64,000 nucleotides of DNA from Atopobiaceae bacterium (GTDB lineage: Bacteria; Actinomycetota; Coriobacteriia; Coriobacteriales; Atopobiaceae): the NCBI GenBank assembly GCA_022483015.1, contig JAKVOB010000001.1:1574902-1638901 (forward strand). The letters run 5' to 3'. The notes beneath the pieces were generated by a model. That model did no database searches. It was not told where the DNA came from and worked only from the letters and a program-made list of their open reading frames with translations. Shown here piece after piece: positions 49,114-58,656 of the stretch. The position numbers were made by a program, and so were the translations under genes. Every line of letters begins with the position of its first letter. Position 1 is the stretch's first letter.

Positions 49114-50406
49114 TCATTCCTCCACGAGGTAGGCTTCCAGAGTCGAGGCCATTCGCTTCGAGACCTTCGCCGTCACGAGCAGGCCAAAACCCTCATAGCT
49201 CTCGTGTACCACCTGGCATCGCTCGTGCACCAGCTTCATGAGCATCCCCTTCTCATAGGGGATGAGGGCGGTCACCGTGACGTCCCCTGCAGAGGCCTCT
49301 CTGGCAATGGCATGGAGCAACGACGAGAGGCCATATCCCGTCGTTGCGGAGACCAGTTGCGCCTCAGGATGATGGGCGCCCAACACGGTGAGGCCCTCAT
49401 CCTCGAGGCAGTCGCACTTGTTGAAGACGGTTATGGAGCGGATGGCAGAGGCGCCGACGAGCGCGAGCGTCTCATCGACCGCCTGGACCTGCTTGTCGAG
49501 GTTCACGTCGCTCGCGTCCACGACCTTCAGGATGAGGTCGGCACCAGAGACCTCAGCGAGGGTCGATTTGAATGCCTCGATGATGTCAGTCGGGAGCTTC
49601 TGGATGAACCCGACCGTATCGGTGATGGTGATTCGACGTCCCTCATCGAGGTCCAAGGCCCTTGTCGTGGGGTCAAGCGTGGCAAAGAGCTCGTCCTTGG
49701 CATAGACGCTGGAATCGGTGAGCGCGTTAAGCAGGGTCGACTTGCCGGCGTTGGTATACCCGGCAAGCGCCACACGGTAGATGCCGGACTCCCATCGCGC
49801 CTTGCTCTGGACACCGCGCTGGGTCTCGACCTTGGCGAGGTCGGCCTTGATGGAGACGATCCTGTCACGCACGAGCCTTCGGTCCACCTCCAGCTGGCTC
49901 TCTCCCTGGCCGAACCGGCTCCCGATGCCACCTCGAGTCTGCTGGCCCATGAGGTGACTCCACATGCCTCTCAGGCGAGGATAGAGGTACTGCAGCTGTG
50001 CGAGCTGGACCTGAAGGCGACCGGCTCGGGTGCTCGCATGCTGCCCGAAGATGTCGAGCACCAAGGCCGTTCGGTCGATGACCTTGACGGGCTCATGAAG
50101 GACCTTCTCGAGGTTGGCCTGTTGCGAGGGCGTCAGCTCGTCGTCGAATATGACGACATCGGCCTCGCACCTCTGCACGAGCGAGACGAGCTCTTCGACT
50201 TTGCCGCTTCCGATGAAGGTCTTGGGGATGGGTGCGTCGAGACGTTGCGTGAGGGTCGCGATGACATCGGCCCCGTCCGTCTCGGCAAGACGTGCAAGCT
50301 CTGCCATCGAGTCATCAAGCGGCCAGTCATGGCTCCCGATGTCTACACCCACGAGCACCGCGCGCTCGCGCGCCTGCTGGGTCACATAAGGCTTGAACCT
50401 ACCCAT
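49114..50406 (-). CDS. hflX: GTPase HflX
   Basis: A 430-residue ribosome-associated GTPase that splits stalled ribosomes under stress. An N-terminal HflX-specific domain (VGVDIG ... FIGSGKVEEL) and a coiled linker are followed by the G domain: GYTNAGKSTL, DTVGFIQKLP and NKCD. I chose ATG 50406, preceded by GGAAGG. Its start codon overlaps the miaA stop by one base. HflX next to miaA is a frequent pairing. Confidence 0.95.
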   Translation of the reverse strand: MGRFKPYVTQQARERAVLVGVDIGSHDWPLDDSMAELARLAETDGADVIATLTQRLDAPIPKTFIGSGKVEELVSLVQRCEADVVIFDDELTPSQQANLEKVLHEPVKVIDRTALVLDIFGQHASTRAGRLQVQLAQLQYLYPRLRGMWSHLMGQQTRGGIGSRFGQGESQLEVDRRLVRDRIVSIKADLAKVETQRGVQSKARWESGIYRVALAGYTNAGKSTLLNALTDSSVYAKDELFATLDPTTRALDLDEGRRITITDTVGFIQKLPTDIIEAFKSTLAEVSGADLILKVVDASDVNLDKQVQAVDETLALVGASAIRSITVFNKCDCLEDEGLTVLGAHHPEAQLVSATTGYGLSSLLHAIAREASAGDVTVTALIPYEKGMLMKLVHERCQVVHESYEGFGLLVTAKVSKRMASTLEAYLVEE

Positions 50407-51350
50407 CAACCGACCTTCCAGTCCGAGACGATCGTCTCCACCGCATGTCCGACATCGGTGACATCCATATCGATCCATCTGACACGGTCATCATGGCGAA
50501 GCCAGGTGAGCTGCCGCTTCGCATATCGCCTTGATCGCCGCTTCACCCTCGTGACCGCCTCGTCGAGCGTGCAGGCGCCCGCGAGATACTCCAGGAGCTC
50601 CTTGTAGCCTATGGCTTGGGAAGCGGTTGGTGCCCGATCGAGGCCATGCGCTCCTAGGGTGCGCACCTCGTCGAGAAGCCCCGAGGCCATCATCCCGTCG
50701 ACCCGAGCGTCGATACGGTCGTAGAGGCGTTGGCGGTCTGTCGCCAGGCCCCAGATCCTCGCATCGTAATGCGGCTCATGGCTGCGAGAGGAGCCATAGG
50801 AAGCGGCATAGGACGTGCCATCGTCTAAGAGCTCGATCGCACGAATGGTCCTCCGAACGTTGTGAGGATGGATGAGGGCCGCGCTCCTGGGGTCTCGGGC
50901 CTCAAGCTCGTCATGGAGGACCTGGCCCCCTTCTACCTCTGCGCGTCTCTCGAGGGCCTTACGACGAGCGTCGCCGCCCGACCCCTCCGGCAACGAGAGC
51001 TCGTCGATGGTCGCATCGAGGTAGAGCCCCGTGCCTCCGCAGAGCACCGGTACGATGCCCCTGCACGTAAGGTCGTCTATGACCTGACGTGCATCATGCT
51101 GGAAGCGCTGGGCAGAGTACCCCTCTCCCGGGTCGCAGACATCGACCATGAGTAGAGGGGCTCGACGCGACGAGGGAGGCGTCTTGGCTGTTCCGATATC
51201 CATCCCCCGATAGACCTGCATCGCGTCGACCGAGATGACAGCCCCTCCGAGCCGTTCGGCGACGCGGTCGGCGACCTCGCTCTTCCCAGACCCGGTCGGC
51301 CCCACGACGCAGATCGTCCTGCCATGGGAAGCCTGCGCGTCCTGGCTCAC
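50406..51350 (-). CDS. miaA: tRNA dimethylallyltransferase
   Basis: A 314-residue enzyme that adds a dimethylallyl group to A37 of tRNAs reading UNN codons. The P-loop is GPTGSGKSE (near residue 17), with DAMQVYRGMDIGTAK, CGGTGLYLDA, HPHNVRRTIRAIE and TASQAIGYKELLEYL. MiaB, encoded just upstream with a 4-nt overlap, performs the next step on the same base. Its substrate DMAPP comes from the MEP pathway (ispH at 11932). Confidence 0.96.
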   Translation of the reverse strand: MSQDAQASHGRTICVVGPTGSGKSEVADRVAERLGGAVISVDAMQVYRGMDIGTAKTPPSSRRAPLLMVDVCDPGEGYSAQRFQHDARQVIDDLTCRGIVPVLCGGTGLYLDATIDELSLPEGSGGDARRKALERRAEVEGGQVLHDELEARDPRSAALIHPHNVRRTIRAIELLDDGTSYAASYGSSRSHEPHYDARIWGLATDRQRLYDRIDARVDGMMASGLLDEVRTLGAHGLDRAPTASQAIGYKELLEYLAGACTLDEAVTRVKRRSRRYAKRQLTWLRHDDRVRWIDMDVTDVGHAVETIVSDWKVG

Positions 51351-52711
51351 CGAGGGTCACCGGCCGGTGTCCCCTTGAGGTACCACGGATGGGCTTCGTC
51401 TATGGTCATCGGCAGTATCGAGCCGACGAGGGCAGCAGAATCGAGGTCCTTGCCCGGAGAGAAGAGCACCGTCTGGTTCTTCTCGGAATGTCCTACCAGG
51501 ACGTCCGTGTTGCGCTTCGAGGGACCTTCGACGAGCACCTGGTCGACCCCTCCTACGTCATTGCGGTTCGATGCGAGGGATTGGGCCTCGACCAGGCGCG
51601 CGAGCCTATCGAAACGGTCCTGTATCACCTCTTGCGGGGTGTCGTCCTCGATGCGTGCGGCCGGGGTACCGTCACGGCGCGAATAGATGAAGGTGAAGGC
51701 AGCGTCGAAGTCGGCCTCGCTCACAAGGCTCATCGTGTCATCGAAGTCGGTCTCGGTCTCACCGGGGAACCCGACGATGAGGTCGGTCGTGAGTGCTATG
51801 CCGGGCATGGCAGCACGGATCCTCCTGGCGAGGGCAAGGTAGTCCTCACGGGTGTAGTGGCGGTTCATGGCCTTGAGGACGCGGGTCGAACCGCTCTGCA
51901 CGGCAAGGTGGAGCTGGGGCATCACGGACGGGGTCTCGGCCATGGCAGCGATCGTATCGTCCGTGAGGTCCTTGGGGTGAGACGAGGTGAACCTGATGCG
52001 CTCGATGCCCGTTGCACCCACGGCGCGGAGCAGCTCGGCGAAGCGAGGGTCACCATATCGGTCGCGGCCGTAGGAGTTCACGTTCTGTCCGAGCAGGCAG
52101 ACCTCCCGGACGCCATCGGCCACGAGATGGTCGACCTCCTGCACGACCTCGTCGAAGTCGCGGCTGCGCTCACGACCACGGACATAGGGAACTATGCAGT
52201 AGCTGCAGAAGTTATTGCATCCGTACATGATGGGGACCCAAGCGTGGAAGGCGGTCGCACGCGAGGACGGCAGGTCAGTCGAGAAGGACGACGACTCGCT
52301 GACGTCGACCTCGAGCTCGTCGCCGACGTCACCACGAGACTCGGCAAGGAGATGCGGGAGGTTCTGGATGGCACCCGTGCCGAAGACCACGTCCACGTTA
52401 GGAAGATGTTCGCGGAGGTTCTCGCCGTCACGCTGGGCGATGCAGCCACCTATGGCGATGGTCCGCCTGCCACTCGGAGGCATGGGCGCACCAAACACGC
52501 CGGTGACGTTGCCATAGAGGCGCGTGTCCGCCTTCTCGCGCACGCAGCACGTCATGAAGACGACGATGTCAGCATCGTCAGCAGAGCCGACCTCGAGACA
52601 ACCGCAGGCATCCAGAAGTCCCGAGACACGCTCTGAGTCGTGGAGGTTCATCTGGCAGCCGAAGGTACGGACGAAATAGGTGAGCCCAACGAGCACGGAC
52701 GGATAGGTCAT
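51347..52711 (-). CDS. miaB: tRNA-2-methylthio-N6-dimethylallyladenosine synthase MiaB
   Basis: A 454-residue radical SAM methylthiotransferase that turns i6A37 into ms2i6A37. The N-terminal domain has its three cysteines (TFGCQMNLHDSERV, MTCCVREKAD, GGCIAQRDG), the radical SAM cluster motif is YGCNNFCSYCIVPYVRGRERSR, and a C-terminal TRAM domain follows. It is co-transcribed with spoVS, whose stop abuts its start. A related enzyme, RimO, is encoded at 59245. Confidence 0.96.
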   Translation of the reverse strand: MTYPSVLVGLTYFVRTFGCQMNLHDSERVSGLLDACGCLEVGSADDADIVVFMTCCVREKADTRLYGNVTGVFGAPMPPSGRRTIAIGGCIAQRDGENLREHLPNVDVVFGTGAIQNLPHLLAESRGDVGDELEVDVSESSSFSTDLPSSRATAFHAWVPIMYGCNNFCSYCIVPYVRGRERSRDFDEVVQEVDHLVADGVREVCLLGQNVNSYGRDRYGDPRFAELLRAVGATGIERIRFTSSHPKDLTDDTIAAMAETPSVMPQLHLAVQSGSTRVLKAMNRHYTREDYLALARRIRAAMPGIALTTDLIVGFPGETETDFDDTMSLVSEADFDAAFTFIYSRRDGTPAARIEDDTPQEVIQDRFDRLARLVEAQSLASNRNDVGGVDQVLVEGPSKRNTDVLVGHSEKNQTVLFSPGKDLDSAALVGSILPMTIDEAHPWYLKGTPAGDPR

Positions 52712-53029
52712 CTAACAAACCGTCCTCACACCATCATCGGTGAGGGCCTGCGAGTCCTGAGGCACCAGGCGATGCACGTAGACGGCGAACCTGATGGCCG
52801 TTCGCGGCTGGCCATTGATCTCGATATCCGAGAAGGTGGGGGCACAGGAGATGTCCACGCCCGTCGGTATGAGGAAGCCTCGGGCGATGGCCATTGCCTT
52901 GACAGCTTGGTTGACGGCACCAGCCCCGACGCACTGCATGTTGACGGGTACGCCATCCTTCACGAGCCCCGCGATGGCCCCGGCGACCGATGCCGGCGAG
53001 GATTTGCTTGATACCTTGAGGTAGTCCAT
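52712..53029 (-). CDS. spoVS: SpoVS-like protein with a C-terminal extension
   Basis: A 105-residue protein whose first 85 residues match stage V sporulation protein S, a small Alba-fold nucleic-acid-binding protein: LKVSSKSSPASVAGAIAGL, VGAGAVNQAVKAMAIARGFL, CAPTFSDIEINGQPRTAIRF. The usual length is about 86 residues; the last 20 here (VPQDSQALTDDGVRTVC) are extra. The organism carries no other sporulation gene in this window, so the role is presumably in vegetative RNA or DNA biology. ATG 53029 has AGGAGA upstream. It lies between rny (one gene upstream) and miaB, as in Bacillus. Confidence 0.93.
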   Translation of the reverse strand: MDYLKVSSKSSPASVAGAIAGLVKDGVPVNMQCVGAGAVNQAVKAMAIARGFLIPTGVDISCAPTFSDIEINGQPRTAIRFAVYVHRLVPQDSQALTDDGVRTVC

Positions 53030-53161
53030 GCATGTCTCCTGGTTCGAGGTCATACGATGCTGCTGCGATTCGAGGTACTTGGATATCTGGCACAAGAACT
53101 GCTATGCATATTCTACCGATTGGAGGGATTCCCGTACGCGGGAATGCAAGGAGGCGAACGG

Positions 53162-54274
53162 TCAATCCCGCTTGTCGACGTCGAAGGTGACGGTGACACG
53201 GCTTCCTGTCACCCGGATATGGGGTTCTCCAGAGAGCTGCAGGTAGTACCTATCAGCAAGGTAAGAGAAGTCTCGCTCGAGGAGCCTTGAGAATCCCTGC
53301 GCGTCCTGGTCGGATATGTGAAGGCCCCGGCAGTCCTTGGTGAGGTCGACCTCATGAGCTTGGCCTCCCGAGACATGTTGCAGACGTGCCAGGACCGAGC
53401 GGGTGGGCTTGATCTGACCGGAGAGTATCCGATGCGCCGTGCGTTCCGAGAGGTCAAGGCCTATTCCAGAGGCGATGCGCATGAGCTCGTCGGCATCGGC
53501 GGCAACCGACGGCCGCGAGACGACCGGAATCGTGGCGACGTCATCGACGAAGAGTAGGTCGCAGGAAGGTGTGGACCCATCGCCGTGCGCACGGAGCGTA
53601 GAGAGGATCTCGGAAGCGCTTCCCAGATACACCTCGCAGGCCGAACGCTCCTCGAGGGCGAACTCGCAGCAGGCGCGGATGATGTTGTGAGGCCCACGCG
53701 AGACGCCGGCGACCCCATCGTCGTCCACACCGACATGTGGCCAGGTGGACTGGTCGGCACGCTCGGACAGGCGCGAGCAGTCGACGTCGACGCGAAGAGA
53801 GCTACCCAACCCAGGAGCCGAGGTGACGACCCGTGCCGAAGAGACGTTCTCGCTGATGGAGAAGAGCGCCATGCCTCTGCCATGGACGCCCCAGCGATCC
53901 ATATGGACTGACTCGAGCTTCGAGGTCACGCGTGCGTCGAAGATGCGGTCCTGCATGTCATCCGGGATGCCCACACCATCATCGATCATCGTGAGGTAAC
54001 GGGCATCACCCTCACGTCCCGTCGCCACATAGATGTGGTGGGCCCCGGCATCACGGGCGTTGCGCAACATCTCGACGACAGCGTCCTCGACAGACTGGAT
54101 GTCGTGCTTTGCCTGCCTGCGCTCGGCCTCCCCGACACGAAGTCGAACGAATCCCTCACCGAGGTTCTCCTCGACCTTGAGCTGCGAGCCCCCAGAGACC
54201 GAAGCGACGAACCCGACCAGGTCATCCTGGGCGGGTTCGTCATGTGAGGCATCGATATGGGACGTTTGCGTCAT
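53162..54274 (-). CDS. GHKL-type ATPase of unknown function
   Basis: A 370-residue protein. The N-terminal part (about 45-165) has a Bergerat fold: N box VVEMLRNARDAGA, G1 box DDGVGIPDD, and G2 box GVHGRGMALFSI, with ARVVTSAPGLGSSLRV completing the sheet. This arrangement is closest to MutL/Hsp90/histidine-kinase ATPases of the HATPase_c_3 kind. The remaining 200 residues match no family I know; there is no MutL transducer, kinase dimerisation helix or membrane segment. It is 6 nt after rny and upstream of spoVS, where Bacillus has ymdB. An RNA-turnover or nucleoid role is suggested by context only. Confidence 0.85.
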   Translation of the reverse strand: MTQTSHIDASHDEPAQDDLVGFVASVSGGSQLKVEENLGEGFVRLRVGEAERRQAKHDIQSVEDAVVEMLRNARDAGAHHIYVATGREGDARYLTMIDDGVGIPDDMQDRIFDARVTSKLESVHMDRWGVHGRGMALFSISENVSSARVVTSAPGLGSSLRVDVDCSRLSERADQSTWPHVGVDDDGVAGVSRGPHNIIRACCEFALEERSACEVYLGSASEILSTLRAHGDGSTPSCDLLFVDDVATIPVVSRPSVAADADELMRIASGIGLDLSERTAHRILSGQIKPTRSVLARLQHVSGGQAHEVDLTKDCRGLHISDQDAQGFSRLLERDFSYLADRYYLQLSGEPHIRVTGSRVTVTFDVDKRD

Positions 54275-54280
54275 GCCGTC

Positions 54281-55840
54281 CTACTTGGCAACGTCGACAG
54301 CACGCGACTCGCGGATGACGACGACGCGCACCTGACCGGGATACTCCATGCCGTCCTCGATCTCGTGGGCGATGTCATGCGCGAGCACCGTGGCCTCGGC
54401 GTCCGAGATCTTCTCGGGCTGCACCATGACGTGAAGCTCGCGACCGGCCTGCATGGCATAGGTACGCTCGACACCAGCATGGGCGTTTGAGATCTCCTCG
54501 AGCTTCTCGAGGCGCTTGATATAGGTCTCGGCAGACTCGCGACGCGCACCAGGGCGTGAGGCAGAGATGGCATCCGCAGCCTGCACGAGGACGTCGAGCA
54601 CGGTATTGGGGTCGACGTCGGCGTGATGGGCCTCGATAGCGTGGACGATCTCAGGCTTCTCGCCATAACGACGTGCCAGGTCGGCTCCGATGACCGCATG
54701 GGGGCCCTCGACCTCATGGTCGATTGCCTTGCCGAGGTCGTGAAGCAGGCCGGCCCTCTTGGCGATGACCTCGTCATAGCCAATCTCGGAAGCCATGACG
54801 CCACAGAGGATGGAGACCTCCTTGGAATGCTGTAGGACGTTCTGTCCGAAGGAGGTGCGGTACTTGAGGGCACCGAGGGTCTTGATGAGCTCAGGGTGCA
54901 GGTCATGGATTCCGGCATCATAGGCTGCCTGCTCGCCAGCCTCCTCGACGCGTTGGTTCACGAGCTCCTCTGCCTTCTTGTACATCTCCTCGATGCGGGC
55001 AGGATGGATACGTCCGTCTGCGATGAGGTTCTCGAGCGCCACCCGAGCGGTCTCGCGGCGGACAGGATTGAAGCTCGAAAGCACGACGGTCTCAGGCGTG
55101 TCATCAACCACGAGCGAGACACCGGAGACCTGCTCGAACGTACGGATGTTGCGGCCCTCGCGACCGATGATGCGACCCTTCAGGTCATCAGACGGGATAT
55201 GCACGGAGGTGACCGTCACCTCGCCGGCTCGATCTGCCGCACAGCGCTGGATGGCCGTGGCAACGATCTCCTGGGCGGTCTTGTTGGCCTCGGCGCGGAC
55301 GTGCTGCTCGGAGTCACGCAGTATCTGCGCCTCCTCGCGTACGGAGTCGGCCTTCACGCGATCGAGGAGCTCGGTATGGGCCTCTTCCTCGGTAAGCGAC
55401 GAGATGCGCTCAAGCTCGGTCTTCTGGCTGGCAACCATGTCGTCGAGATCGGACTTCTGCTTGTCGAGCTGGCCCTGCTGGCTGGACAGCTGGTGCTCTC
55501 GCTTGTCGAGGGCGTCGTTACGGCGGTCGAGGGACTCCTCGCGCTGCATGACGCGCTTCTCGAGGTCATGGATCTCGGCCTTGCGCTGCTTGCCATCAGC
55601 CTCAGAGCTCTGCTTGATCTTGAGGGCTTCCTCCTTGGCCGCGATGAGCGCCTCCTTCTTGGAGGTCTCCGCATCGCGCTCGGCAGAGGAACGGATGGAC
55701 TCCGCCTTCGACTTGGCGTCGTCCACCTCCTTGTTGGCGGCCTGCACCCGCGACGAGTTCTTTCCGTTGAACACGACCATTGCGACGGCTGCGCCGACGA
55801 CAAGGCACACGATCCCTATGACGATACTGATGACATCCAT
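54281..55840 (-). CDS. rny: Ribonuclease Y
   Basis: A 519-residue membrane-anchored endoribonuclease that starts mRNA decay. One N-terminal helix (IVIGIVCLVVGAAVAMVVF), a long charged coiled coil (about 25-200), a KH domain (GRIIGREGRNIRTFEQ) and an HD domain with the metal pair in LLHDLGKAIDHE, plus a C-terminal RNase Y region. ATG 55840 has AGGAG five bases upstream; a longer frame reaches 55903 without such a site. A near-perfect promoter lies at 56016-56044, giving a leader of about 170 nt. Confidence 0.96.
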   Translation of the reverse strand: MDVISIVIGIVCLVVGAAVAMVVFNGKNSSRVQAANKEVDDAKSKAESIRSSAERDAETSKKEALIAAKEEALKIKQSSEADGKQRKAEIHDLEKRVMQREESLDRRNDALDKREHQLSSQQGQLDKQKSDLDDMVASQKTELERISSLTEEEAHTELLDRVKADSVREEAQILRDSEQHVRAEANKTAQEIVATAIQRCAADRAGEVTVTSVHIPSDDLKGRIIGREGRNIRTFEQVSGVSLVVDDTPETVVLSSFNPVRRETARVALENLIADGRIHPARIEEMYKKAEELVNQRVEEAGEQAAYDAGIHDLHPELIKTLGALKYRTSFGQNVLQHSKEVSILCGVMASEIGYDEVIAKRAGLLHDLGKAIDHEVEGPHAVIGADLARRYGEKPEIVHAIEAHHADVDPNTVLDVLVQAADAISASRPGARRESAETYIKRLEKLEEISNAHAGVERTYAMQAGRELHVMVQPEKISDAEATVLAHDIAHEIEDGMEYPGQVRVVVIRESRAVDVAK

Positions 55841-56015
55841 GGCCACTCCTAGGTAAAGGTATGCAAGTGTGAGGAGACCACCGGCTAAGGTGGAGTCCGC
55901 CATACGAGTGGCTTCTCGAGTCTATGTGGAAACAAGAGCTAGACGGGCGTGCAGAAACAAGGGAAACGTCAAGCTGCCAAGACAGAAGACGAGAGGAAAC
56001 TCGAATGACCCATCA

Positions 56016-56044
56016 ATCATATGGGGGCGACTGAAACGTGTCAA
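56016..56044 (-). promoter_or_regulatory. Near-consensus sigma-70 promoter of the rny operon
   Basis: On the minus strand TTGACA (56039-56044) and TATGAT (56016-56021) are separated by exactly 17 bp. It lies 175 bp before the rny start and would also drive the GHKL ATPase, spoVS, miaB, miaA and hflX if read through. The 275-bp gap (55841-56115) contains no gene. Confidence 0.85.
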
Positions 56045-56115
56045 ACGGGTTTACAGTTGAAGTGACGACCGGGGCTGCGCCGACGGTATCTCCATAGAAT
56101 CGGCGTCGCGTCGCC

Positions 56116-56823
56116 CTACGAGCGCCAGAGGCCACGGTCCTCGAGCACGCGACGTGCCGCATCCTTCGAGACGGACAGCGAGAAGCCTCGGGCGCTCAAG
56201 AATCGCACGAGCTTCTCATAGGGGTGAGCACCAGAGAGCGACCTGGATGCGATGAGGTCATAGGCGCGGTCGGCCTCGCCGTCGGGATCAAGGTAGTCAT
56301 CAGGCCATCCGGGGACCGCTGAGGCCTCGATGCCCTTCCGTGCAAGTTCGCGCTCGATACGATAGGAACCCCAGCCGGCCTGGACCTTGGTCCGTATGAA
56401 GACATCGGCGAACCGGTCATCGTCGAGGACCCTACCCTTCTTCGCACGGTCGATGACCTCGTCTATGACCGACGGGAGATATCCGTCGTCGTGGAGCTTC
56501 GTACGGGCCTCGTGGACAGAGTAGTCACGCCGGTCCACGAGGCCCGAGAGCCGTGACACCGCACAACGTCCCTCGATGGAGCGCACGGCGTACAAGAGCT
56601 CGGCCCGAGACGAGTATCCGGGAGGGTCGCAACAAGCATCGGACGCCTTGGTCAATGCCTTCCCTACAGCCAAGGGTACCAACATCACCTCAGGAGACTG
56701 GGACGGTCCGATGAGGACCTTGGCGCGCGGCCTCCTCCCACCTAGAGACGAGCTGGTCTGCGATGGGAGCTCCACGTTCCACGCGAAGCCCTGCGAGGCC
56801 GACTGCTCGGTGTGGTGGTCCAT
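56116..56823 (-). CDS. recX: Regulatory protein RecX
   Basis: A 235-residue helical protein that binds and restrains RecA filaments. Three RecX helical repeats are seen from about residue 80, with ISSLVDRRDYSVHEARTKL-like features, FIRTKVQAGWGSYRIERELARKGI and RFLSARGFSLSVSKDAARRVL. The first 65 residues are a non-conserved extension, so the real start might be further in. It lies 6 nt after recA, the usual order. Confidence 0.88.
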   Translation of the reverse strand: MDHHTEQSASQGFAWNVELPSQTSSSLGGRRPRAKVLIGPSQSPEVMLVPLAVGKALTKASDACCDPPGYSSRAELLYAVRSIEGRCAVSRLSGLVDRRDYSVHEARTKLHDDGYLPSVIDEVIDRAKKGRVLDDDRFADVFIRTKVQAGWGSYRIERELARKGIEASAVPGWPDDYLDPDGEADRAYDLIASRSLSGAHPYEKLVRFLSARGFSLSVSKDAARRVLEDRGLWRS

Positions 56824-56829
56824 GGAAGG

Positions 56830-57948
56830 CTATTCCTTCTTCGCTTCGGGAGCCTTGTTGGCGGCGGGGTCTTCAGCATCCGTGACTGGCGCCCCCACGC
56901 GATCGTCCTCAAGGTCCAGTCCGCAGGCCACGCGGACCTTATGCTCGATCTCAGAGGAGAGGTCTGGGTTGGACCGGAGGAAGTCCTTGGCAGCCTCGCG
57001 TCCCTGGCCAAGGCGTTCTCCCTCATAGGTATACCAGGCCCCAGACTTGTTGACGATATCCTCGTCAGCCGCCATGTCGAGGATGGACCCCTCCTTCGAG
57101 ATGCCTGTGCCATACATGATGTCGAATTCGGCCTGCTTGAAGGGAGGAGCGACCTTGTTCTTGACGACCTTCACCCGGACGCGGTTGCCGACCACCTCGC
57201 CATTGACCTTGATGGAGTCGATCCGCCTGATGTCCATGCGGACGGAGGAGAAGAACTTCAGGGCACGGCCACCGGGCGTGGTCTCGGGGTTGCCGAACAT
57301 GACGCCGATCTTCTCACGGAGCTGGTTGATGAAGATGCAGGTGGTGTTCGACTTGGCAAGCGAGCCAGCGAGCTTGCGGAGCGCCTGGCTCATGAGACGG
57401 GCCTGGAGTCCGACCGTGGTGTCACCGATCTCTCCCTCGATCTCCGCGCGCGGCACGAGGGCCGCCACGGAGTCGACGACAACGACGTCGATGGCTCCGG
57501 ACCGGACGAGCATGTCACAGATCTCGAGGGCCTGCTCACCGGTGTCAGGCTGTGATATGAGGACCTCGTCGATGTCTACACCGAGCCGAGCGGCATACCC
57601 GGGGTCGAGGGCATGCTCGGCGTCTATGAACGCGACGACGCCGCCCATCGCCTGGGCCTCTGCCAGGATCTCGAGCGAGAGCGTGGTCTTGCCGGAGGAC
57701 TCGGGACCGTAGATCTCGACGATACGCCCGCGCGGGACGCCGCCTATGCCGAGAGCCGCATCAAGGGCCACCGATCCTGTGGGAATGGCCTCGATCTCGA
57801 GGTCGGGACCATCGTCCCCATACTTCATGATGGCACCCTTGCCGAACCTCTTCTCGATCTCAGCGGTGGTCGATTCGATCATTCGATCGCGCTCTGCGCC
57901 GGTGCTCGGCCCATGGACCTCTTTGGTGACGTCCTTGCTCTTGGACAT
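56830..57948 (-). CDS. recA: Recombinase RecA
   Basis: A 372-residue recombinase that forms filaments on single-stranded DNA, exchanges strands and triggers LexA cleavage. Walker [10 protein letters not shown], Walker [13 protein letters not shown], the L2 and [22 protein letters not shown] regions and the C-terminal acidic tail are all normal. The ATG at 57948 follows GAGGGGA. A SOS-controlled promoter and a second, PafBC-like promoter element lie upstream. recX follows. Confidence 0.97.
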
Positions 57949-57970
57949 GGCATCCCCTCTCGTCGTATGC

Positions 57971-57999
57971 ACTATAACCGAACATTCGTTCGTAGTCAA
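57971..57999 (-). promoter_or_regulatory. recA proximal promoter with a perfect LexA box in the spacer
   Basis: On the minus strand TTGACT (57994-57999) and TATAGT (57971-57976) are 17 bp apart. The SOS box CGAACGAATGTTCG (57979-57992), a perfect CGAAC-N4-GTTCG, fills the spacer, so LexA would block polymerase directly. Confidence 0.9.
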
Positions 58000-58012
58000 C
58001 GGACACAGGTCG

Positions 58013-58035
58013 AGGGTACCAGCGAAAACTGACAA
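58013..58035 (-). promoter_or_regulatory. Candidate PafBC-type (RecA-NDp) promoter element upstream of recA
   Basis: On the minus strand TTGTCAGTT (58027-58035), eight bases, then TACCCT (58013-58018). This is the order and spacing of the mycobacterial LexA-independent element TTGTCRGTG-N8-TANNNT, with eight of nine bases matching in the first part. The regulator itself is not in the window. Confidence 0.55.
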
Positions 58036-58050
58036 GGATTCGGTTCCGAC

Positions 58051-58066
58051 TGTCAGAATTCTGACA
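58051..58066. promoter_or_regulatory. Perfect 16-bp palindrome upstream of recA
   Basis: TGTCAGAATTCTGACA lies 50 bp upstream of the recA -35 box and 16 bp beyond the PafBC-like element, which contains the same TGTCAG core. It may be an operator. Confidence 0.4.
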
Positions 58067-58143
58067 CGAACGGTCAACCACGAGGGTCTCGAGTCCTTAC
58101 GCTCGGAGCTGTCACCGATGGACCCCCTCGACCGACCGAGACC

Positions 58144-58656
58144 TCAGGCGAGGGTGCCACCACACTCCATGAGACCCTCATGAAGCTCGGCCAACGCGAC
58201 ACGAACCGCCTGGGCACGTACCTCATCGCGATCCCCAGTGAACGTGTGCAGACGAGCTGAGGTGGACGCTGCAGTCGAGCGACCTATCCAAACCGTGCCG
58301 ACCGGCTTGCCCTCCTCGGCACCACCAGGTCCAGCGATACCCGTGACGCTCACTGAGACGTCGCAGGCGAGCACGGCTCGGGCACCTTCGGCCATGGCAC
58401 ACGCACACTCGGACGAGACTGGCCCCACTCCATCGATCACCAGGGGCGGGACACCAAGGACCGACTCCTTGACGGAGCACGCATAGCTCGTGATGCCGCC
58501 CATCATGACCTCGGAGGACCCAGGTATGTCCGTGATGGTCGCAGAGACGAGGCCGCCCGTGCACGACTCGGCCGTCCCGAGCGTGCGACCGGCTGCTCGT
58601 GCCTCGTGGACGAGCGCCTCGGCATCTCTCATGACCTCGTCGTCAATCCTCATCAC
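58144..58656 (-). CDS. cinA: Nicotinamide-nucleotide amidohydrolase, CinA C-terminal type (PncC)
   Basis: A 170-residue stand-alone CinA_C domain that deamidates NMN to NaMN in pyridine nucleotide recycling. ESCTGGLVSATITDIPGSS, GGITSYACSVKESVLGV and VTGIAGPGGAEEGKPVGTVWIG are the conserved blocks. The N-terminal MoCF-like domain found in Bacillus CinA is absent. It overlaps pgsA by 14 nt. recA lies downstream but has its own promoters. Confidence 0.93.
   Translation of the reverse strand: MMRIDDEVMRDAEALVHEARAAGRTLGTAESCTGGLVSATITDIPGSSEVMMGGITSYACSVKESVLGVPPLVIDGVGPVSSECACAMAEGARAVLACDVSVSVTGIAGPGGAEEGKPVGTVWIGRSTAASTSARLHTFTGDRDEVRAQAVRVALAELHEGLMECGGTLA

Follow-up and report, generated by a model that had tools for sequence, protein, structure and literature searches.

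The minus-strand gene directly behind rny in the 64,000-nucleotide stretch of Atopobiaceae DNA analyzed here (the window) represents an undescribed, highly conserved family of proteins within the known GHL superfamily. The family is found in a deep branch of the Actinomycetota, and its gene adjoins rny in all informative loci that were read. In many bacteria mRNA decay begins with RNase Y, whose transcript targeting is known mainly from Firmicutes. We propose that this protein, here termed X, probably assists RNA decay under the control of ATP; that it acts as an accessory factor of RNase Y in particular is our favored explanation, held at somewhat less than an even chance. An earlier sequence-only reading had singled out the gene as a candidate for an undescribed system, of which the undescribed protein family stands, while the word "system" claims too much. 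The locus comprises the following features.

53162–54274, minus strand: X, a 370-residue GHL-type ATPase with a C-terminal half lacking a family (open reading frame; HATPase_c E 1.1e-8; orthologues in 148/149 class genomes).
54281–55903, minus strand: rny, encoding RNase Y, the constant upstream neighbor of X (RNase_Y_N 1.5e-49, HD 6.6e-16, KH_1).
54275–54285, minus strand: rny–X junction, where the X ATG lies 6 nt past the rny stop and an AGGA overlaps the TAG stop.
52712–53029, minus strand: spoVS (Alba-fold family), the next downstream gene (SpoVS PF04232 4e-34; start at 53029 chosen for the upstream AGGAG).

The interval 53162–54274 thus holds a real gene of 370 codons on the minus strand, a strand that the earlier reading had left unstated, and all three motifs that it had quoted (RNARDAGA, DDGVGI, and GVHGRGMA) are there. 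The minus-strand gene order in the window is recA, recX, rny, X, spoVS, miaB, miaA, hflX, with rny, spoVS, and recX named by Pfam and the other neighbors by reading their translations. The listed spoVS reading frame spans 52712–53095, and its start is probably the ATG at 53029, which follows an AGGAG, and not the upstream TTG; this places the end of X 132 nt before spoVS. The distance from rny to X is 6 nt. A σ70-like site matching 11/12 positions lies upstream of rny (56044–56016), none was found between rny and spoVS in the window, including before X, and a scan of 50000–58400 detected no terminator-like site, a pattern compatible with, but not proof of, a shared rny–X transcript. Candidate rny–X gene fusions (open frames of 905 and 936 residues; G083, G096, and G008) were rejected, since a TAG stop separates the two genes in each.

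X is present in 59 of 60 relatives and in 148 of 149 genomes of the class Coriobacteriia, which are gut bacteria such as Collinsella, far more often than chance would allow, and is thus a core gene; across the phylum it is found in 124/296 genomes (E below 1e-15). Named carriers are Collinsella, Enorma, Slackia, Atopobium, Olsenella, Lancefieldella, Candidatus Aquicultor, Candidatus Subteraquimicrobium, and Candidatus Oleimmundimicrobium, and the best 80 loci in a scan of genome contigs all carry titles that name Actinomycetota or state no phylum. One family, f38, carries a shorter, diverged X of about 300 to 320 residues that is nonetheless homologous over its whole length (profile comparison, 100% probability, E 4.6e-53), with HGAG in place of HGRG in the G2 motif of most members. 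A defense or phage gene was rejected as the identity of X, given that a PADLOC search with X returned 0 families, no relative was found on viral contigs, and X is a core gene.

The linkage to RNase Y asserted in the earlier reading proved stronger than claimed. The order rny-X-spoVS is found in all of the first 69 loci, where the start of X is coupled to the rny stop: with few exceptions it lies about 1 to 25 nt past that stop, and in one locus at 62 nt (the script left a few X starts unplaced, as in L022 and L059). In 40 further, more diverse loci X again lies behind rny, as it does among the named carriers wherever the contig shows rny; the informative loci include ten from a family without spoVS. 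RNase Y is found in all 124 genomes that carry X, and no genome has X without RNase Y; X is missing from 80 of the 204 RNase Y-positive genomes, and 92 genomes lack both (n = 296). The genomic dependence on rny expected of an RNase Y partner is therefore seen both in co-occurrence (124/124) and in adjacency in the informative loci. Fisher's test of the co-occurrence gives p 1e-28, a value that ignores common ancestry. The co-occurrence is clustered by family; because nearly every family either has X throughout or lacks it, few independent events stand behind these counts. On a tree of 72 RNase Y sequences, the X label requires 7 changes under parsimony, at least four of them on well-supported branches, versus 17.7 when shuffled, and despite these changes X is always located at rny. 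A mirror-tree test revealed no specific covariation between X and RNase Y (77/500 permutations at a partial r of 0.15), and the value for X and MiaB was higher (0.51). Two X profiles found no X-like gene behind rny among the matches listed in 20 neighborhoods with RNase Y and without X, where the gene after rny is miaB, spoVS, one with a PHP domain, or an unassigned reading frame.

Other genes recur in this block. A PHP-domain gene of about 275 to 280 codons, read from sequence, lies between spoVS and miaB in many relatives outside the order of the window (L130:6614-7441, L137:6499-7320, L146:6533-7372, and similar), and in two X-less genomes (L111:2990-3829 and L115:2442-3278) it directly follows rny; Pfam confirmed the PHP assignment for the X-less loci. 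RNase AM is among the PHP phosphoesterases, and this gene may be another RNA-metabolism gene of the rny block. Small DUF948-type proteins are encoded near rny in two X-less genomes (L119:3650-4030 and L117:1677-2051).

The N-terminal half of X comprises an arm and an ATPase core.

54104–54190, minus strand: N-terminal arm, residues 29–57 (the VEENLGEGFVRLRVGEAERRQAKHD region), with E49, R53, Q54, and A55 invariant in 46/46 and 60/60 members.
53771–54103, minus strand: GHL ATPase core, residues 58–168, with E68, N72, D98, G102, T117, G129, H131, G132, R133, and G134 invariant and a match to the MutL ATPase profile (E 1.8e-9).

The Pfam HATPase_c match covers residues 58–164 (E 1.1e-8). Among 46 diverse members, the invariant residues are E49, R53, Q54, A55, and D58 in the arm; E68, N72, and D75 in the N-box; D98, G102, R115, T117, G129, H131, G132, R133, and G134 farther along; and Q175, P179, G194, N197, S276, R278, and R282 in the C-terminal half. 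Conservation peaks in the arm, with a mean majority fraction of 0.71 versus 0.63 for the core. The catalytic Glu, the Mg-binding Asn, and the DxGxG, TSK, and GxHGRG motifs are essentially invariant, and the residues that define the GHL/GHKL Bergerat fold (E68, N72, D98, G102, G129, H131, G132, R133, and G134) are conserved in 46/46 and 60/60 sequences. In an alignment with MutL, ELLRNARDAG pairs with ELVENSLDAK and TSK with TSK, and the AlphaFold model of X (mean pLDDT 87, pTM 0.74) can be superposed over its ATPase part on MutL, topoisomerase VI-B, and gyrase (Z 10 to 13). The ATPase half is GHL-type and nearest MutL, and from the invariant catalytic Glu, which separates GHL ATPases from histidine kinases, X likely hydrolyzes ATP. 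All NCBIfam matches, to MutL and to kinases, are subthreshold, the best being TIGR00585 at 41.1 bits versus a cut-off of 180.

The kinship with MutL raises another explanation, that X is an ATP-gated, DNA-binding clamp of the MutL or topoisomerase type, engaged in repair, recombination, or chromosome handling and placed in the recA-recX-rny-miaB block by chance. Besides the ATPase domain itself, the nearby recA and recX genes and a helix-turn-helix-like element in the C-terminal half that could bind DNA speak for it, as does the absence of MutL from the class: its transducer domain, PF01119, was found in 0/39 class genomes, that of the window included. However, X tracks rny and not recX, which has no match in many loci with X, and X co-occurs with RNase Y. 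Furthermore, family f38 has MutL in addition to X, and genomes that lack X lack MutL too, so that X as a replacement for MutL was rejected: among the 296 phylum genomes, MutL-type PF01119 matches occur only in f38, often two per genome, and since this sole sampled family with MutL also carries X, X is no stand-in for it. We consider a DNA clamp unlikely, at roughly one chance in five.

The C-terminal half has no counterpart among known families.

53165–53770, minus strand: C-terminal region, residues 169–370, no known family (no Pfam match and nothing credible from PDB profile or Foldseek searches; model pLDDT 87).
53366–53524, minus strand: helix-turn-helix-like element, about residues 251–303 (GLxxSxRTxxRIxxGEIxP), with S276, R278, and R282 invariant in 46/46 and 60/60 members.

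As the earlier reading had anticipated, the last ~200 residues have no known counterpart: the profile check that it proposed, a Pfam scan of residues 169–370, returned no family, NCBIfam, PDB profile, and structure searches were likewise negative, and no clear match to a histidine kinase, MutL, or a topoisomerase appeared in this region. Modeled alone (pLDDT 87, pTM 0.60), it gave no Foldseek match under E 0.4 and no VIA-align match above Z 4.5, which leaves room for a topoisomerase VI-B/GyrB fold, with its transducer and, in topoisomerase VI-B, an H2TH domain; absence of a match from the Foldseek and VIA-align lists is no proof of a new fold. Weak structural matches of residues about 217–287 to helix-turn-helix and winged-helix domains recur (Z 2 to 3.2), and PHROGs gave weak matches only, including the helix-turn-helix phrog_3642 (E 0.028). 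The GLxxSxRTxxRIxxGEIxP motif is compatible with a helix-turn-helix without proving one. If this helix-turn-helix bound DNA in the vicinity of rny, spoVS, or other genes and the GHL domain set its state by ATP, X would be an ATP-sensing transcription regulator, for which a place inside the operon would suit autoregulation and to which the invariant S276, R278, and R282 and the weak structural matches could point. Against this, the assignment is weak, as no Pfam helix-turn-helix family matches more than single members of the X family, and the element carries a net charge of about zero throughout the family; we regard a regulator as improbable, slightly more so than the DNA clamp.

That X works with SpoVS in nucleoid or ribonucleoprotein organization, as first suggested, is very doubtful: spoVS follows X in most loci and 89 of the 296 genomes carry both, but 35 of the 124 genomes with X lack SpoVS, 10 have SpoVS without X, and spoVS lies much farther from X than rny does in the window. 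Several diverse loci have no spoVS between X and miaB. The survey of neighborhoods thus bears out that X lies behind rny in the informative loci read and not that the order is always rny-X-spoVS; the absence of SpoVS from 35/124 genomes makes RNase Y, not SpoVS, the constant neighbor and leaves a specific tie to SpoVS unsupported, and nothing was found for a role in nucleoid organization. In one locus (L026:1885-2816), X and spoVS lie about 930 nt apart, versus about 20 to 300 nt in most loci.

The single class genome without X provides a natural deletion. G186, a complete, reduced genome of 1.45 Mb from the same order, retains RNase Y (56% identity) in a locus that reads recA-rny-spoVS-miaB-miaA, with no X between rny and spoVS (L213, 3797–5861, reversed locus), no X remnant in a profile search of the locus, and no match to recX there either. 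Since G186 keeps rny and spoVS without X, X is accessory and not strictly required for RNase Y; together with the 80 of 204 RNase Y-positive genomes that lack X, this loss indicates that RNase Y works without it.

The gene, its motifs and conservation, its linkage to rny, its co-occurrence with RNase Y, and its dispensability in one lineage are direct observations; for X as a helper of RNA decay, we infer the following cycle, in which X probably behaves as other GHL ATPases do. ATP binding would join two X protomers into a dimer by way of the conserved arm and the ATPase core and so close a clamp, which ATP hydrolysis would reopen. The C-terminal half, with its helix-turn-helix-like element, may contact RNA, alone or in complex with RNase Y, or else a partner, for example RNase Y itself or a RicT-like PSP1 protein. 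RNase Y would thereby be loaded onto certain transcripts, directed to them, or restrained on them. A clamp is proposed because the arm is the most conserved stretch and the N-terminal region of GHL enzymes aids ATP-dependent dimerization. In its most specific form, X would be a clamp or loader that is gated by ATP and reserved for an endoribonuclease of mRNA decay, a GHL ATPase for RNA turnover and not for DNA repair, topology, or chaperoning, perhaps with a role in early-branching Actinomycetota like that of RicA/RicF at RNase Y in Firmicutes; we advance this version tentatively, as a little better than a one-in-four prospect. A core ATPase found only with RNase Y, in the Coriobacteriia and their deep relatives, would offer a concrete, testable handle on the control of RNase Y outside Firmicutes and bring RNA decay within the range of GHL ATPases.

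Comparison with known systems begins with Bacillus, in which we take ymdB to lie between rny and spoVS. The YmdB phosphodiesterase gene shares this slot with X, but the protein is unrelated, so that X is not YmdB, and YmdB (PF13277) is found in 0/59 class genomes, which makes the contrast with Bacillus real at the gene level. The earlier statement that X stands where Bacillus has ymdB therefore holds for gene order and fails as a simple swap, as no YmdB lies behind rny in the 20 neighborhoods with RNase Y and without X. Literature searches found no paper treating RNase Y, ymdB, and spoVS together and none linking GHKL proteins with RNase Y. Sensor histidine kinases share HATPase_c (Foldseek top rows E 3e-5) but generally lack the GHL catalytic Glu; X has this residue, E68, and no HisKA/DHp, and a histidine kinase was rejected with no HisKA match at E 1 and the best NCBIfam kinase far under its cut-off. 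Topoisomerase VI-B and GyrB share the ATPase fold (Z 10 to 12 over about 120 to 147 residues), whereas X has neither a recognizable transducer nor a partner topoisomerase gene beside it. MutL/Mlh1/PMS2 come closest, sharing the catalytic Glu and Asn (ELxxNxxDA), DxGxGI, TSK, and RGxAL, the best PDB profile match (E 1.8e-9), and the first place in the structural comparison (Z 13.1 with 142 aligned, rmsd 4.2), with topoisomerase VI-B and gyrase close behind. X is nevertheless not MutL: it lacks the S5-like transducer domain PF01119, reaches 41.1 bits versus the TIGR00585 cut-off of 180, and shows no sequence match to MutL in the arm or the C-terminal half.

Finally, the RicA/RicF/RicT Y-complex of B. 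subtilis resembles X in proposed role only, that of an RNase Y partner (PMC10470536), and bears no sequence relation to it. Stable binding of RicT to RNase Y there needs RicA and RicF (PMC10470536); the YlbF family (RicA/RicF) is found in 0/39 class genomes, and PSP1 (RicT/YaaT family) is encoded separately in 29/29 (G000:C1:863436-863693 and 28 others). PSP1 and RNase Y match in the same six of 14 control genomes. Thermus, Deinobacterium, Bacteroides, and Thermotoga controls match RNase Y and PSP1 but not YlbF, and thus no replacement for RicA/RicF need exist. With YlbF absent and PSP1/RicT present in the class, a coupling of RicT to RNase Y by X is a specific, testable idea, which these control genomes weaken.
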